Assembly (NCBI GenBank): GCA_004195045.1
Contig: SGBC01000001.1
Span: 310,001-374,000, forward strand
DNA: 64,000 nt
Source of the DNA: Candidatus Acididesulfobacter guangdongensis
Lineage (GTDB): Bacteria > SZUA-79 > Acidulodesulfobacterales > Acidulodesulfobacteraceae
Direction of reading: 5' to 3'
Positions 46,950 to 57,302 of this stretch are shown here, piece after piece. A program made the translations under genes and the position numbers. The notes under the pieces were generated by a model. That model saw only the letters and a list, made by a program, of their open reading frames with translations. It was not told the DNA's origin and searched no databases. Position 1 is the first letter of the stretch, and each line of letters begins with the position of its first letter.

Positions 46950-47002
46950 AATTATTAATATATTATCATTTTTAAATTTTTTAGCAATAATTATTTTATA
47001 CC

Positions 47003-47115
47003 TTAATCCTGCAATAGAAAGTTATCTACTCGGAAAAGGTGTCAGACACCTTTTACTTTTATATTTCGCTTAACCGAGCAAAGAAATGCATAAATATTTT
47101 CTATTGCTGGATTAA
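47003..47115. repeat. Outer palindromic repeat with short inner palindrome (copy E)
   Basis: The outer arms TTAATCCTGCAATAGAAAG and TTTTCTATTGCTGGATTAA enclose a collapsed inner element at 47032-47055 (GGAAAAGGTGTC, A, GACACCTTTT). An inner pair CTCGG/CCGAG also flanks it. The outer right half (GAGCAAAGAAATGCATAAAT) matches the copies at 31513 and 41778. It lies upstream of pheS, in a 342-base gap that also contains the terminator at 47202-47244. Confidence 0.9.
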
Positions 47116-47201
47116 GGTCATAGAAAACATTTGTAGTATAATTTTTAGGATATTGCTTTTACATAACAGATTATCAAGTGAATTGTAATATTTTATAAAA
47201 A

Positions 47202-47244
47202 AAAAGTCTGTTGTAAAATTTTTTCAATTTTACAACAGACTTTT
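47202..47244 (-). terminator. Strong intrinsic terminator after the DsrE-like gene
   Basis: A perfect 19-base-pair stem: AAAAGTCTGTTGTAAAATT, a five-base loop, then its exact complement. In the minus direction the stem is followed by a run of T (about nine). It ends the transcript of the solute-binding/DoxDA/DsrE cluster, 48 bases after the DsrE-like stop, and isolates it from pheS. Confidence 0.9.
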
Positions 47245-47291: not shown

Positions 47292-47858
47292 TTATGGTTT
47301 TAAATATGCATATCCTTCTGCTTCTCTTAAGATGATTTCGCCCTGAGCTGATGGAACAACCTTTACAAATGAATATATTTTTGATACTGGAATATGTAAT
47401 TCATATAAGCTGTTTGCGCATTGAGCTAGCTCTACGCCGTCTTTTTTTAACGTCAATAATGCTTTTTTATATCCATTGCCTTTAAAATACAGATGCGTTC
47501 CTGCGCTAAATGCCTGTAATTCGACAACAATGTGACCTTTTAATCTTGGGTCGTTTAAAGCATTATGAATATTATCTATAATCTTATTCATTTTTACTTT
47601 GTTGTTTGCACTGATTACATAAATTGCATGATAAATCTTTCCCGGAACCATTGGAGCGCCCATTGTAAAAGCAGGGCTTATTGATAAGTTAGGGAAATAT
47701 TTTCTAACCCCGTTAACATTGTGCCAACCGTACCATCCGGCAGGATGAATAGTTGGAGCTGTCCCTCTCCAATTTGCATAAGCATTAGATGTCATTGAAA
47801 AAACGGCAATTGCAAATGCCATAATTGCAATGCTTAATAAAGAGCTTTTCTTTTTCAT
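47292..47858 (-). CDS. Exported DsrE-like protein
   Basis: Secreted protein of the DsrE/DsrF fold, a group that carries or senses sulfur. Residues 1-28 are a Sec signal peptide (KKK, hydrophobic core, SNAYA). An unusual Trp/Tyr/His-rich stretch follows (about 29-70). The DsrE domain covers about 74-188, with VVELQAFSAGTHLY, a single conserved-position Cys147 (GVELAQCANSLYEL), VVPSAQGEIILREAEGYAYLKP split across the last strand and helix, and a C-terminal Pro. Cys147 is the likely persulfide site. It lies 68 bases downstream of DoxDA, so a periplasmic sulfur-transfer role beside thiosulfate oxidation is inferred. Confidence 0.85.
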   Translation of the reverse strand: MKKKSSLLSIAIMAFAIAVFSMTSNAYANWRGTAPTIHPAGWYGWHNVNGVRKYFPNLSISPAFTMGAPMVPGKIYHAIYVISANNKVKMNKIIDNIHNALNDPRLKGHIVVELQAFSAGTHLYFKGNGYKKALLTLKKDGVELAQCANSLYELHIPVSKIYSFVKVVPSAQGEIILREAEGYAYLKP

Positions 47859-47926
47859 TTTCTTCTCCTTTTTTTAGTTAATTTTATATATTTATTACAC
47901 TTAAACGACTATAAACTGCTGCTAAA

Positions 47927-48973
47927 TTATCCATTATACTGAGCAGAGCCTGAAAATACCTGTCCGCCGACATTTTCTAATTCCAATTTATAGCTTCCTG
48001 CTTTCAACGCCTTAATTTTTTTGGCAAACGGCAAAGTTATAAATGCTTTTGCTCCGAGAGGCATTTCAAGACTGAATTTATTAACTGTCATTTTATTAAC
48101 GTAAATGTTGTGTATATCGGATTTTGGAAGTGATACAACTGCTTTATTGTTCCACAAATACACAGTCTTTCCGGCAGCATTAACTAATTTTACTTTCATA
48201 ATATTAGCAAGAGCGCCGCCGCTTCCACCAATTCTATACGCAAGAAATTTAACGTTGTTAGATGTAATTTTTGCATTAGATACTGAAACTACGACCTTCG
48301 CTCCAAAATTATGTAATTTTCCCCAAACTCCGCCATCGAATAATTGATTTGAACCCATAGTCACTAATGTGCCGAAAACTGTAAACACTATTATCCATGT
48401 TACATATCCGTTTCCCCACAATGGACCGTTTCCAATTAATCTGTAGCCGAATGAATTAGCAAAATTCGGCCAGGCATTTCTGACTAAGTCGTCAAACGAC
48501 CACGCACTGCCGACGAACAGTATTAGAAGTCCAATTACCATTTCTACCGAACCAACCTGCCATTCATCAAGGCATGTTGCGCCAAGCCATCCTGAACCGA
48601 ACAGTATTCCAAAGGCTAAACAAACTGCGCCGAATGCGCCGAGTCTTGAAAACAATCCGAATATTAGCGATAGCCCGACTAAAAATTCAATTACCGTAAA
48701 TATATCAAGAAACACAGCCAATGCGCCTGGATTTAATAACAATGTATGAATCAAACCATGCACACCCATAAATCCGCTTGCATGCGGAATAAAAGTATTA
48801 AACTTATGCCCCACCCATAATGGTGAATTAGGCTCTAATTTCCCTGCCGATAACACAACTCTTCGCCATGCAGCTGAAAAAAACATCCATCCGAGCGTAA
48901 TTCTCAGAGGGATTGCGGCATAGGCTAAATAGCGGTAAAACGTACTGTCTTTAACATCAAAATTGTTTGCCAT
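47927..48973 (-). CDS. doxDA: Thiosulfate:quinone oxidoreductase, fused DoxD-DoxA
   Basis: Membrane enzyme that, in Acidianus, oxidises thiosulfate to tetrathionate and reduces quinone. Residues about 10-220 are the DoxD part: YAAIPLRITLGWMFFSAAWRR, then several membrane helices with EFLVGLSLIFGLFSRLGAF and SGWLGATCLDEWQVGSVE. Residues about 225-348 are an extracytoplasmic DoxA-like domain (MKVKLVNAAGKTVYLW, LENVGGQVFSGSAQY). The fusion resembles that of Acidithiobacillus and other sulfur acidophiles. The 348-residue frame has a GGGG ribosome site. The neighbours, a solute-binding protein and a DsrE-like protein, support sulfur metabolism. Confidence 0.88.
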   Translation of the reverse strand: MANNFDVKDSTFYRYLAYAAIPLRITLGWMFFSAAWRRVVLSAGKLEPNSPLWVGHKFNTFIPHASGFMGVHGLIHTLLLNPGALAVFLDIFTVIEFLVGLSLIFGLFSRLGAFGAVCLAFGILFGSGWLGATCLDEWQVGSVEMVIGLLILFVGSAWSFDDLVRNAWPNFANSFGYRLIGNGPLWGNGYVTWIIVFTVFGTLVTMGSNQLFDGGVWGKLHNFGAKVVVSVSNAKITSNNVKFLAYRIGGSGGALANIMKVKLVNAAGKTVYLWNNKAVVSLPKSDIHNIYVNKMTVNKFSLEMPLGAKAFITLPFAKKIKALKAGSYKLELENVGGQVFSGSAQYNG

Positions 48974-49219
48974 TTTCTTTACCCCATTTAATTACATTTA
49001 TTACATTTGCTTAAATTACGCCGTTCAATAGATTGCTCCAGCATATTTAAGAATCCTAAATTTCTTTTTATAATTATTTCTTTTACAATCCTTGACTATT
49101 ATTTGATAGTCAATAAACACAATTTACGCTCCTTAGTTAATCTGCAGATGTGTTTTATTTTAGCTTATAGTTAACATAGAAACACACCTGCAAACAAACA
49201 GTATTTTAATACGACTCTA
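48974..49219 (-). other. Intergenic region with two stem-loops between the solute-binding gene and doxDA
   Basis: This 246-base spacer contains an imperfect inverted repeat GCAGATGTGTTT (49144-49155) / AAACACACCTGC (49180-49191), 11 of 12 pairing. A smaller hairpin, GACTAT/ATAGTC, lies at 49094-49111. Neither is followed by a T-run in the minus direction, so they are more likely mRNA processing or stability elements, or a partial attenuator, than a full terminator. A separate promoter for doxDA could also lie here. Confidence 0.4.
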
Positions 49220-50212
49220 TCAAGGAGCTTTAAAACCGTATCTTTCAAATATTCTCAAGCTCGTTTTCGTTTTTAAGAAATTCAACCATTCTTTTGCAGC
49301 AACTTTATTTGGTGCGCCTTTTGTCATAGCTGCACCGTAAAGAGCTGTCGTATTCTGACTTGCAGGAATCTTAACTCCTGTTATAGGATTGCCTATCATT
49401 TCCTGGAACTTCACTTCGGAATACCAATTTACACCTGCATCAGATTTATGCTGCATAATTCTTATAGGTGTCTGACGATGATGAATATGCGTCAAATATA
49501 CTCTTCCCGATTTTACTCCGTAATTATAAACAGCCTGCTCTAATTTTTTGCCGCCTGCTTTTATTAAAGACATCTTAATCTGTCTTGCAATTCCTTCCCA
49601 TTCAGGATTCGGCATAGACAACTTTAATTTTGGATTCAAAAAGCTTTTTAAGCCGGTTATGTGGTATGGATTGCCTTTGTCGGTCATGATTTCAAGGTCG
49701 TTTGTAACATAGGTCACTTTTTTACCTACTGTCATGCCTATTTTATTAGTATAGTTTAATTTTTTTGCTCCTGCCATATAAACATCAGGTACAACATGCA
49801 TTGTTAAATTGCCAAGCGTGATCGTATCACCATGTTTCCACATTCTGATTAAAATTCCAGGAGGAATAGTTATATAGAATACATGCTTAACATTTGGGTA
49901 TTCTTTCAGAAACGCTTTAACTAAACGCGGAACAACAAAGAATATATTTCCGCCGATATAAAGCACCAAACTTGATTTCGGATGTAATGTAACAGTGGTA
50001 ATATTTCCGTGATAATCAGGATTATTGTCGACTGTTATCGCATTGAACTTATATCCCTGATGAAGAGCCGGATCGCCTTGTTTGCACCATGGCGGAAATA
50101 TCCTTCTAATCCCCATAGCAAACGAATTGTTAGACATCGTCATAGAAATTACAAAAACAAAAGCCATAACAACGCCCAAAAATCTGTAATGCTTTTTTGA
50201 ACTTTCGTTCAT
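49220..50212 (-). CDS. Exported solute-binding protein (type II periplasmic-binding fold, ModA-like)
   Basis: A 330-residue protein with an N-terminal signal segment (about 10-33, ending SNNSFA). The body matches extracellular solute-binding proteins of the molybdate/sulfate type: YIGGNIFFVVPRLVKAFLKEYP, then VPDVYMAGAKK, VTNDLEIMTDKGNP and GLKSFLNPKLKLSMPNPEWEG. The C-terminal AAMTKGAPNKVAAKEWLNFL is also typical. One Cys (43) lies just after the signal. No permease or ATPase is encoded nearby, so it may be a periplasmic sulfur-compound binder serving DoxDA rather than part of an importer. An AGGAGG ribosome site precedes the ATG. Confidence 0.75.
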   Translation of the reverse strand: MNESSKKHYRFLGVVMAFVFVISMTMSNNSFAMGIRRIFPPWCKQGDPALHQGYKFNAITVDNNPDYHGNITTVTLHPKSSLVLYIGGNIFFVVPRLVKAFLKEYPNVKHVFYITIPPGILIRMWKHGDTITLGNLTMHVVPDVYMAGAKKLNYTNKIGMTVGKKVTYVTNDLEIMTDKGNPYHITGLKSFLNPKLKLSMPNPEWEGIARQIKMSLIKAGGKKLEQAVYNYGVKSGRVYLTHIHHRQTPIRIMQHKSDAGVNWYSEVKFQEMIGNPITGVKIPASQNTTALYGAAMTKGAPNKVAAKEWLNFLKTKTSLRIFERYGFKAP

Positions 50213-50889
50213 AATTCTTGCCTCCTAAAGGTTAATTTGATTGTTTTGAATTAATTTTATATTGAAACGTAAACTGTATGCGAACTGTATATTATTTATT
50301 GCTGAATGTTGTACTTTTAATACAATATAATATAATTATCACTTAATGTTTTAAATGTCAATAAAAAAAATACTATTATAAAACTATTTTTTTTAATATT
50401 AATCTTTACATAAAAAATATAATATATGCTTATTATTATATAATAATATAACTATATATAAATTGCTAATAGTCAAATATAACAATATTTAACTTATTAA
50501 TAATAAAAGAATTTTTAACCCAACCTCACTACTTTTATTATTTTAAAATTATAATTGATTAAATATTATTATATTATATTTTTTATTTTGGAGTCACCAT
50601 AGACATTTTTATTGCCCCATAAATTTAATAATATCAACGCGTTGCTGATAATTATGGTGAAGTTGGGTTAATAAATGTAAGTTAAACATACGATAAAATA
50701 AATAGATATGCTATAAACTTTAGGATATTTTGTAATGCAGTTTAATTTGAAATTCCGGTACGTTTAATGCTGAGATATTATATATAAATATTCACAGGTT
50801 AAGGATATGGTACGCAGATTATGAAGGTTAAAAATGTATTAAATTTAAAAATACGGCAGACAGATTGTGAAGGTTAATAAATATTTATG
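50213..50889. other. 677-base gene-free AT-rich region
   Basis: No open frame with coding character on either strand. It contains the MITE-like element at 50515-50671 and two 17-base near-identical direct repeats (CAGATTATGAAGGTTAA at 50815-50831 and CAGATTGTGAAGGTTAA at 50861-50877). It also presumably holds the promoter of the solute-binding/DoxDA/DsrE cluster near its left end. I cannot pick out a convincing promoter because the whole region is A/T runs. Confidence 0.6.
50515..50671. mobile_element. MITE-like element with 15-bp terminal inverted repeats
   Basis: The left end TTAACCCAACCTCAC (50515-50529) and right end GTGAAGTTGGGTTAA (50657-50671) pair at 14 of 15 positions over a 157-base span with no coding frame. 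A second inverted pair (TCACCATA at 50594 and TATGGTGA at 50653) and a GC-rich palindrome CAACGCGTTG (50635-50644) lie in the right half. Such short, terminal-repeat, non-coding units are typical of miniature elements moved by a transposase elsewhere. Only one copy is in the window, so mobility is unproved. Confidence 0.6.
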
Positions 50890-51496: not shown

Positions 51497-52948
51497 TTAC
51501 CAGATATCTGTTTTCAAATATTGATCTATAGCATCGGCAGCATTCTTACCTGCTCCCATTGCAAGAATAACGGTTGCAGCGCCTGTAACTATGTCGCCGC
51601 CTGCGAATACCCCTTTCTTGGTCGTTTTTCCGGTCTTTTCATCAGCTATAATATATCCCCACTTATTTAAATCCATGCCTGGAGTGCTGGATGGCACAAT
51701 CGGATTTACATTAGTTCCTATAGCAATAACCGCAGCGTCGATGTCGGCGACGAATTCCGACCCTTTAATAGGTATGGGTCTTCTGCGTCCGCTTTCATCA
51801 GGTTCGCCCAACTCCATTCTTTCGCATTCTACTTGCTTGAGGTTTTGTTTTTCGTCTCCGATAAATCTTATAGGATTTATCAGAAAGTCAAATTTAATTC
51901 CTTCCTGCTCGGCATGATGTATTTCTTCAAGTCTGGCTGTCATTTCATTGCGTGACCTTCTGTAAAATATTCTTGCATCGCTGTAACCCAATCTGAGTCC
52001 TGTTCTAACCGCATCCATAGCAGTATTGCCTGCTCCAAAAACTACCAATGTTTTACCGCATTTCATCGGCGTATCATACTCATTCATATTATATGCACGC
52101 ATTAGATTTATTCTAGTAAGAAACTCATTGGCTGAATACACTCCGTTTAGTTCTTCTCCCGGAATATTTAAAAACTTAGGTGTACCTGCGCCAGTTCCGA
52201 TAAAAACTGCGCTATAACCTTTTTCGTTTAACAATTCATCGACGGTTATTGTTTTGCCGATAACCACATTTGTAAATATTTCTACTCCATTATCCTTCAA
52301 AATCTGCACTTCCCTTAAAAGAATCGACTTAGGAAGCCTGAATTCGGGAACTCCATATATAAGAACGCCGCCTACCTCATGCAGCGCTTCAAATATTGAC
52401 ACACGATAACCTTTTTGCCGCAACTCTCCGGCTGCTGCCAGTCCGGATGGTCCCGCGCCTACTATTGCAATTTTTTTATCGTATAAATTTTTACCATTAG
52501 AAACATTATTTTTTTTGCCGTGTTCAGCCTCATAATCTGCCACAAATCTTTCTAAATTACCTATAGCAACTGAGGTTGAATCTTTTCTTTTCCCGACGGT
52601 ACAAGCTTTTTCGCACTGGTCTTCCTGAGGACATACCCTGCCGCATATAGCAGGCAGCGAGCTTTTCTCTCTGATTTTTTTTGCTGCGCCAAGAAAATCA
52701 CCTTTTTCTATCAATTTTATAAAGGCAGGAATATCAATGCTGACGGGGCATCCCTGAATGCAGTACGGCACTTTGCAGTCAATGCATCTTTTTGCTTCCT
52801 CAATTGCCTCTTCTATTGAATATCCTACAGAAACTTCTTTAAAATTCTGCACTCTTTTTGCCGGATTTTGCGCAGGCATATCATGACGTTTTATTTTTAA
52901 TCTTTCCTTAGTATTAAGAATTATCTGCTCTTTATTTTTATTTTCCAT
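51497..52948 (-). CDS. nfnB: NADPH-dependent oxidoreductase NfnB / glutamate synthase small-chain family
   Basis: Flavin and iron-sulfur protein of the GltD-like family. N-terminal [4Fe-4S] ligands: Cys55, Cys58, Cys63 and Cys67 (CIDCKVPYCIQGC), then Cys102, Cys106, Cys112 and Cys116 (CGRVCPQEDQCEKAC). An FAD-binding GAGPSG (164-169) and NADPH-binding GAGNTAMDA (about 305) follow. Its 483 residues fit NfnB/SudA or homotetrameric GltA. Because the NfnA-type gene lies just upstream, I call it NfnB, large subunit of the electron-bifurcating NADH-dependent ferredoxin:NADP+ oxidoreductase. Sulfide dehydrogenase (SudA) is a name for the same family. Confidence 0.9.
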   Translation of the reverse strand: MENKNKEQIILNTKERLKIKRHDMPAQNPAKRVQNFKEVSVGYSIEEAIEEAKRCIDCKVPYCIQGCPVSIDIPAFIKLIEKGDFLGAAKKIREKSSLPAICGRVCPQEDQCEKACTVGKRKDSTSVAIGNLERFVADYEAEHGKKNNVSNGKNLYDKKIAIVGAGPSGLAAAGELRQKGYRVSIFEALHEVGGVLIYGVPEFRLPKSILLREVQILKDNGVEIFTNVVIGKTITVDELLNEKGYSAVFIGTGAGTPKFLNIPGEELNGVYSANEFLTRINLMRAYNMNEYDTPMKCGKTLVVFGAGNTAMDAVRTGLRLGYSDARIFYRRSRNEMTARLEEIHHAEQEGIKFDFLINPIRFIGDEKQNLKQVECERMELGEPDESGRRRPIPIKGSEFVADIDAAVIAIGTNVNPIVPSSTPGMDLNKWGYIIADEKTGKTTKKGVFAGGDIVTGAATVILAMGAGKNAADAIDQYLKTDIW

Positions 52949-53121
52949 ATTTTAATTTTAGCTGTCTTATAATTTTTTACATATATCAGAACTTATGATA
53001 TAAGAAACAACCATTCCTCCTCGTCATGACAATTTAGTTAACTTCTTAATATTTCTTTAAATAAAATAATAATCATCTCTTAAATTTTTGAAATTTATAT
53101 TTTTATTTTTGCTAATTGATC

Positions 53122-53964
53122 TTATTGCTCTTTATGATGCTCTTTTCTGTGGCACTCGTAAGATGATTTTTCTTCGTCTTTATAAAATCTCTGCCTATTT
53201 ACTAAATTCTCAAAATCAACCTGATGCGCATCAAAATCAGGACCGTCAACGCATGCAAATTTTGTCTCTCCGCCGACTAAAACTCGGCAGGCTCCGCACA
53301 TTCCGGTTCCGTCTATCATAATTGGATTAAGACTTACAATAGTTTTTATATTATATTGTTTAGTGAAATCGCTTACTGCCTTCATCATAGGAACTGGACC
53401 TATCGCTATAACCCTGATAATATTTTTTTTATCGTCAACTATTAATCTTTTTAATATGTCGGTAACAAATCCTTTTGTTCCGTAACTGCCGTCATCAGTT
53501 GCTATTAAGAGCTGAGAACTTGCGCTTCGCATTTCGTTTTCCATCAATAAAAGGTCTTTCCTTCTAGCTCCTATTATAGAAATAACATCGTTTCCCGCAT
53601 TTTTCAGGGCTTTTGCAATAGGATGAACGGCTGCAATGCCGAACCCGCCGCCTATGCAAACTACCGTGCCGAAGTTTTCAATTTCAGAAGGAATGCCTAA
53701 TGGACCTACGAGGTCCGCCAATTCATCCCCTGCTTTTAATTCACTTAATAAATGCGTTGTTTTGCCCAAGGTCTGGACAAGTATAGTAATATAACCTGAA
53801 TTTTTATCCGTATCCGCAATAGTTATAGGAATACGTTCTCCTTTTTTATGTACGCGCAGAATGACAAACTGGCCAGGTAAAGCTTTGGCTGCTATATCGG
53901 GAGCACTTATTTTATAAACATTGACTCCTTCTCCAATGCTTTTATTTTCAATAATTTCATACAT
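53122..53964 (-). CDS. nfnA: NfnA, ferredoxin-NADP+ reductase subunit (sulfide dehydrogenase SudB family)
   Basis: Small subunit that binds FAD and NAD(H) and pairs with NfnB to move electrons between NADH, NADPH and ferredoxin. The FAD domain has RIPITIADTD (about 44-53), and the NAD-binding part has VCIGGGFGIAAVHPIAKAL (about 102-120). The [2Fe-2S] site fits Asp218, Cys223, Cys226 and Cys238 (DGTGMCGACRV and FACVDGPDF), the unusual Asp ligand known in NfnA. 280 residues, with a polar His/Glu/Lys tail. The 173-base gap to nfnB shows no second gene. Confidence 0.9.
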   Translation of the reverse strand: MYEIIENKSIGEGVNVYKISAPDIAAKALPGQFVILRVHKKGERIPITIADTDKNSGYITILVQTLGKTTHLLSELKAGDELADLVGPLGIPSEIENFGTVVCIGGGFGIAAVHPIAKALKNAGNDVISIIGARRKDLLLMENEMRSASSQLLIATDDGSYGTKGFVTDILKRLIVDDKKNIIRVIAIGPVPMMKAVSDFTKQYNIKTIVSLNPIMIDGTGMCGACRVLVGGETKFACVDGPDFDAHQVDFENLVNRQRFYKDEEKSSYECHRKEHHKEQ

Positions 53965-57248: not shown

Positions 57249-57302
57249 TTAATCCTGCAATAGAAAGTTATCTACTCGGAAAAGGTGTCAGACACCTTTT
57301 CC
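57249..57302. repeat. Palindromic repeat copy G: outer left arm with short inner palindrome
   Basis: The outer left arm TTAATCCTGCAATAGAAAG (57249 on) is followed by GTTATCTACTC. The short inner form at 57278-57302 is a perfect 25-base palindrome: GGAAAAGGTGTC, central A, GACACCTTTTCC. The outer right arm seen at 47003-47115 is absent. It lies between queD and the SurA-like gene. Confidence 0.88.

Follow-up and report, generated by a model that had tools for sequence, protein, structure and literature searches.

Among described systems, the tsd-sbp-doxDA-rhd(P21) cluster of Acidithiobacillus ferrooxidans (AFE_0041-0050) is one of the closest to the locus analyzed here. It encodes a solute-binding protein (SBP) and DoxDA without a transporter (PMC2621215, PMC6335251), and most of its genes are upregulated on sulfur compared with iron (PMC2754497). 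Its Tat protein AFE_0042 has since been recognized as a thiosulfate dehydrogenase (TSD); PMC6335251, with reference to Kikumoto 2013, puts the top activity of the enzyme at pH 2.5 and notes that alone it reduces neither ubiquinone nor horse cytochrome c. On Metallosphaera cuprina DsrE3A, a Cys-S-thiosulfonate has been demonstrated that is passed to TusA; DsrE3A reacts with tetrathionate, but not with thiosulfate (PMC4175335).

In our window, the whole stretch of 64,000 nucleotides that was analyzed, three minus-strand genes lie one after another. They encode an exported, permease-less SBP_bac_11 protein of the thiosulfate-cluster type (49220-50212, 330 aa), a membrane protein resembling a fused DoxD-DoxA thiosulfate:quinone oxidoreductase (47927-48973, 348 aa), and an exported DsrE-like protein whose sole cysteine, Cys147, is invariant (47292-47858, 188 aa). 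An intrinsic terminator on the same strand (47202-47244), with a perfect 19-pair stem, a 5-nt loop and a minus-strand T run, closes the trio. The earlier note had described three co-directional genes ending in a strong terminator, and both features stand, with the gene order kept in relatives. A single transcript is plausible, and we put it no higher because the SBP-DoxDA gap is about 246 bp here and varies from 108 to 482 bp in relatives.

The trio shares with the A. ferrooxidans cluster an SBP beside a fused DoxDA (an adjacency taken for A. ferrooxidans from PMC6335251, not from sequence comparison), an exported partner, the lack of an ABC permease and a host that is an acid-mine sulfur oxidizer. 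It differs in that an exported DsrE follows DoxDA and there is neither TSD nor rhodanese, whereas A. ferrooxidans has both. Because a search for TSD (NF052225, at E 0.01) found it in 0 of 30 genomes of the phylum, the trio is a variant of the A. ferrooxidans-type cluster and not a member. The same search led us to reject a TSD encoded elsewhere in the source genome. The suggestion that the arrangement might be undescribed therefore has to be narrowed: a transporter-less SBP-DoxDA pair is already on record for A. ferrooxidans, and what we found no description of in the literature is the form in which an exported DsrE takes the TSD position.

Several repeats and neighboring genes surround the trio. 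Just downstream, at window 47000-47118, the palindrome AGGTGTCAGACACCT lies within a 21-nt inverted repeat; exact copies occur at window 57283-57297 and elsewhere in the genome (also loci L027 and L028), and this dispersed palindrome looks like a small REP-type repeat. An AT-rich stretch upstream of the SBP gene holds an imperfect inverted repeat (50512-50674; AACCCAACCTCAC ... GTGAAGTTGGGTT), possibly a small mobile element or a regulatory region. Also upstream, window 51497-53964 encodes a pair resembling glutamate-synthase-small-subunit-like and flavin-binding subunits of the NfnAB/sulfide dehydrogenase type, which adjoins the trio in loci L003, L005, L009, L011, L012 and L014 and not in L007, L010 and L013.

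The source genome (2.2 Mb, 99% complete) belongs to the phylum Candidatus Acidulodesulfobacteriota, and one of its relatives is Candidatus Acididesulfobacter diazotrophicus, an organism of acid mine drainage. Our searches covered 30 genomes of this phylum and, outside it, plasmids. The SBP is present in 13 of the 30 genomes, DoxDA in the same 13, and a close DsrE (E < 1e-117) again in these 13. The order SBP-DoxDA-DsrE is kept in all 12 relatives found with DoxDA, the very conservation whose lack the earlier note had named as fatal to its module. Such conservation excludes chance ORFs, and the co-occurrence is strong evidence for a unit, although the genomes are related and do not represent 13 independent events. 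The flanks of the trio vary between species. Three other genomes, G007, G010 and G026, have a DsrE homolog at the 1e-72 level without SBP or DoxDA.

The SBP matches PF13531 (SBP_bac_11) in Pfam with E 6e-36 and scores 30.1 bits against the modA equivalog, under its cut-off of 62.5. At its N-terminus, a hydrophobic stretch leads into a signal-peptidase-like site, and both are kept in all 13 orthologs; the sites of the two soluble proteins of the trio (NAYA before N, NSFA before M) were read by eye as belonging to Sec-type signals. No ABC permease gene lies beside the SBP at the locus. A distant ABC partner was also considered and rejected, as all five relevant permeases in the genome sit beside other partners. 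Two belong to a phosphate system and two to a peptide system, and the fifth is part of a molybdate-type system that has an SBP_bac_11 protein and an ATPase to itself. That protein and the trio SBP are the only two SBP_bac_11 members in the genome. The proposal of a binding protein without a transporter is thus borne out, and the importer that might have undone it does not appear. The SBP is 46-51% identical to SBPs of proteobacterial TSD, DoxDA and cytochrome clusters and 38% identical to those in Bacteroidota, with LT(H/Q)IHHRQ, MPNPxxEG, GGN and PPGxL as shared motifs. By these comparisons, the trio SBP is not an orphaned ABC part, and its homologs form a permease-less family.

The second protein contains DoxD (PF04173, 142.6 bits, E 1.4e-41; cut-off 22.7) and DoxA (PF07680, 81.1 bits, E 9e-23; cut-off 27) in one ORF. 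Against the NCBIfam DoxD equivalog NF041179, a model whose match is confined to the DoxD part, it scores 106.7 bits, under the cut-off of 300. We therefore name it DoxDA-like, a putative thiosulfate:quinone oxidoreductase, and make no claim of activity. The thiosulfate:quinone oxidoreductase of Acidianus ambivalens likewise has both DoxD and DoxA, but in our protein the two are fused and accompanied by two exported proteins. A TC(L/I)DEW motif is conserved in DoxDA, and its Cys134 is also present in the DoxDA of Gluconobacter, Salmonella and Martelella. On Salmonella and Martelella plasmids, DoxDA occurs without the SBP. The Salmonella enterica plasmid pLG26p2 (L043, 4926-6014), for example, carries a DoxDA-like gene, and several Salmonella plasmids are alike, with no SBP, TSD or DsrE annotated nearby.

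The third protein scores 16.1 bits against Pfam DsrE (PF02635), under the cut-off of 22.7, whereas exported homologs in other phyla pass. Its profile matches the DsrE-fold protein MTH1491 (1l1s) with E 2.1e-9, and this match, together with a cysteine at the active-site position, argues for membership of the DsrE superfamily at the level of fold. As had been proposed, it is an exported protein with one key cysteine: a hydrophobic stretch and a signal-peptidase-like site are found at the N-terminus of all 13 orthologs, and Cys147 is invariant in these and in all exported DsrE proteins aligned. Metallosphaera cuprina DsrE3A resembles it in superfamily and, under the model favored below, in a reactive cysteine and thiosulfonate chemistry, but is not exported, has a Cys-X7-Cys arrangement and works with TusA.

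Secreted DsrE proteins are less unusual than the earlier note supposed, since relatives of one exported type occur in 67 plasmid records and several more lie in the sox clusters of this clade. In the source genome, an exported DsrE follows soxY, soxZ and soxB (L094:3713-7832; G000:C1:633000-648000), and sister genera have two to four around soxB and soxA (L091:7303-12350, L096:7735-12081). One of the sox-cluster proteins of this clade has a lipoprotein-like N-terminus. In this clade, exported DsrE proteins therefore go together with the oxidation of thiosulfate in the periplasm, a pattern in keeping with the trio as a thiosulfate module.

Comparison with plasmid clusters shows which partners this SBP family keeps. 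We found the family in 22 plasmid records at 38-51% identity, several of them near-identical plasmids, so the independent cases are fewer. In all 22, the gene directly upstream of the best-matching SBP encodes either TSD (13) or an exported DsrE (9), with TSD identified by NF052225 over its cut-off in Bosea, Methylobacterium and Bradyrhizobium and elsewhere by homology to these. No ABC permease occurs in the annotated plasmid SBP neighborhoods. The electron acceptors encoded nearby are of two kinds: DoxDA, which we saw in acetic acid bacteria, and c-type cytochromes, which frequently come with haem-copper oxidases. Gluconobacter and Acetobacter plasmids carry TSD-SBP-DoxDA, which resembles our locus in an SBP 51% identical with DoxDA directly after it, but has TSD in place of DsrE and a DoxDA only about 25% identical. 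Conversely, DsrE-SBP(-SBP2)-cytochrome c clusters in Komagataeibacter, Acetobacter, Paraburkholderia, Hymenobacter and Spirosoma, for which we found no description in the literature, place an exported DsrE beside the same SBP family, but have c-type cytochromes, often with a haem-copper oxidase, in place of DoxDA. A single Acetobacter ascendens plasmid (L078:2680-5642, 16684-23438) holds both versions, TSD-SBP-DoxDA and DsrE-SBP-SBP2-cytochromes-cbb3 oxidase. SBP2, a second, divergent solute-binding protein, is often found in the same clusters (L033:6991-7761, L040:6866-7639, L087:4067-4831, L088:4068-4832), and its recurrence suggests a two-SBP version of the module.

In a tree of the SBPs, which has long branches and few sequences, one branch (92/91) separates the TSD-partnered (8) from the DsrE-partnered (9) proteins. 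Because the tree splits by partner while DoxDA falls on both sides, we tentatively propose that the SBP remains tied to its exported partner and that it is the acceptor that is swapped.

The absence of TSD from the 30 phylum genomes implies that DsrE fills the TSD slot, and the two proteins may be related. TSD has no Pfam family, and a PDB sequence search with it gave no credible match. An earlier comparison of TSD and DsrE with thin alignments returned probabilities of 22% and 1.4%. When 12 TSD sequences were compared with a large set of exported DsrE proteins (hhalign), the C-terminus of TSD matched with 95.9% probability and E 5.4e-9, over about 54 aligned columns of the C-terminal part only. 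In the alignment, the cysteine of TSD (in SCHNAIWE) falls on Cys147 (in QCANSLYE), and GTLPELQxAGFxYA at the C-terminus of TSD lies opposite GEIILREAEGYAYL of DsrE. The match-column score was 60.3, compared with at most 24.3 in 300 column shuffles and 11-18 for reversed-sequence, SBP and DoxDA profiles, and the match was recovered when the DsrE set was limited to Proteobacteria (E 5e-5) or to the remaining exported DsrE (6e-8). Among 200 shuffles in which gappy columns were retained, one scored 133, which we treated as an artefact of gap columns.

No direct match was seen between TSD and the cytosolic DsrE of the genome (score 20, the shuffle level), although exported and cytosolic DsrE match each other. 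The structures predicted for DsrE and for SBP on the basis of 13 close orthologs were unusable (pLDDT 40 and 34). TSD and exported DsrE are probably distant relatives; the match makes a good case for homologous C-terminal parts but does not prove that the fold is shared.

Taken together, these observations lead us to favor, at a probability of about 0.55, a model in which the trio is a periplasmic thiosulfate-oxidizing module of the same kind as tsd-sbp-doxDA of A. ferrooxidans, but having an exported DsrE where that cluster has TSD. We infer its substrate, cysteine chemistry, electron path and direction of reaction as follows. The SBP and DsrE would act jointly outside the inner membrane as the outer, thiosulfate-handling part. 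Thiosulfate would be held on Cys147 as a Cys-S-thiosulfonate, as on Metallosphaera DsrE3A, and a second thiosulfate would then release tetrathionate, with two electrons passing to membrane DoxDA and on to quinone. The failure of TSD to reduce ubiquinone or cytochrome c by itself fits a need for such partners.

Several points count against this model. The main chemical caution against the Cys147 scheme is the reaction of DsrE3A with tetrathionate and not thiosulfate. The TSD match covers only the 54 or so columns and does not extend to cytosolic DsrE. Paraburkholderia fungorum has DsrE and TSD within one cluster, so the two need not be equivalent. In Acidianus, DoxD/DoxA alone is held to make tetrathionate, so SBP and DsrE could be dispensable.

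The earlier note had read the trio as a periplasmic sulfane-sulfur relay of capture, oxidation and carrier. Spelled out, the SBP would capture a sulfur compound, DoxDA would oxidize it, and DsrE would carry a persulfide or thiosulfonate to enzymes such as Sox. In known systems, DsrE proteins do carry sulfur, DsrE3A hands thiosulfonate to TusA (PMC4175335), and exported DsrE paralogs lie within the sox clusters of this clade. However, the trio comes with no gene for an acceptor, be it TusA-like or SoxYZ, and in sister clusters the exported DsrE holds the position of an enzyme, TSD. We therefore retain the conserved periplasmic sulfur-oxidation module from that reading and favor DsrE as the counterpart of TSD instead of a downstream carrier, a role that we consider unlikely, if still the strongest of the alternatives.

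Less probable still is that the neighborhood is incidental, the SBP sensing or scavenging an oxyanion such as molybdate, tungstate or sulfate while DoxDA alone serves as thiosulfate:quinone oxidoreductase. The weak modA similarity and the Salmonella and Martelella plasmids with DoxDA but no SBP would fit, but another SBP of the same Pfam family belongs to a separate ABC system in the genome, the trio SBP family accompanies sulfur-oxidation genes without an ABC permease in both Proteobacteria and Bacteroidota, and the genomes with the SBP are exactly those with DoxDA. We give a similarly small chance to a module running in reverse, with quinol driving the reduction of tetrathionate or other polythionates in a host that may be a sulfate reducer. 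The mixed dsr set of the order suggests both sulfate reduction and sulfide oxidation (PMC6776010), and the preference of DsrE3A for tetrathionate points the same way (PMC4175335); against this, related clusters carry cytochrome oxidase genes, which argues for oxidation, and expression of the A. ferrooxidans cluster rises on sulfur compared with iron (PMC2754497).

Of greatest interest in this analysis are the partner swapping and the probable kinship of TSD and DsrE. A broader and more speculative proposal, which we hold with less confidence than the thiosulfate-oxidizing module itself, is that TSD and exported DsrE form one superfamily of periplasmic, cofactor-free, single-cysteine thiosulfate oxidizers that work with a dedicated non-transport SBP and an exchangeable acceptor, DoxDA or c-type cytochromes; the window would hold the DsrE-plus-DoxDA version. 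For A. ferrooxidans TSD, a protein without a Pfam family, the gene pairs suggest a DsrE-like origin with a reactive cysteine, and they point to the binding protein, together with either DoxDA or cytochrome c, as candidate partners in its electron route. The locus further suggests that a ModA-like binding protein need not work with a transporter and can instead belong to an enzyme module. Finally, the founding paper of the order describes mixed dsr genes, sqr and a partial sox set, and the word doxDA is absent from it (PMC6776010); the trio suggests that thiosulfate oxidation of the tsd-sbp-doxDA kind extends to this uncultured acid-mine phylum.
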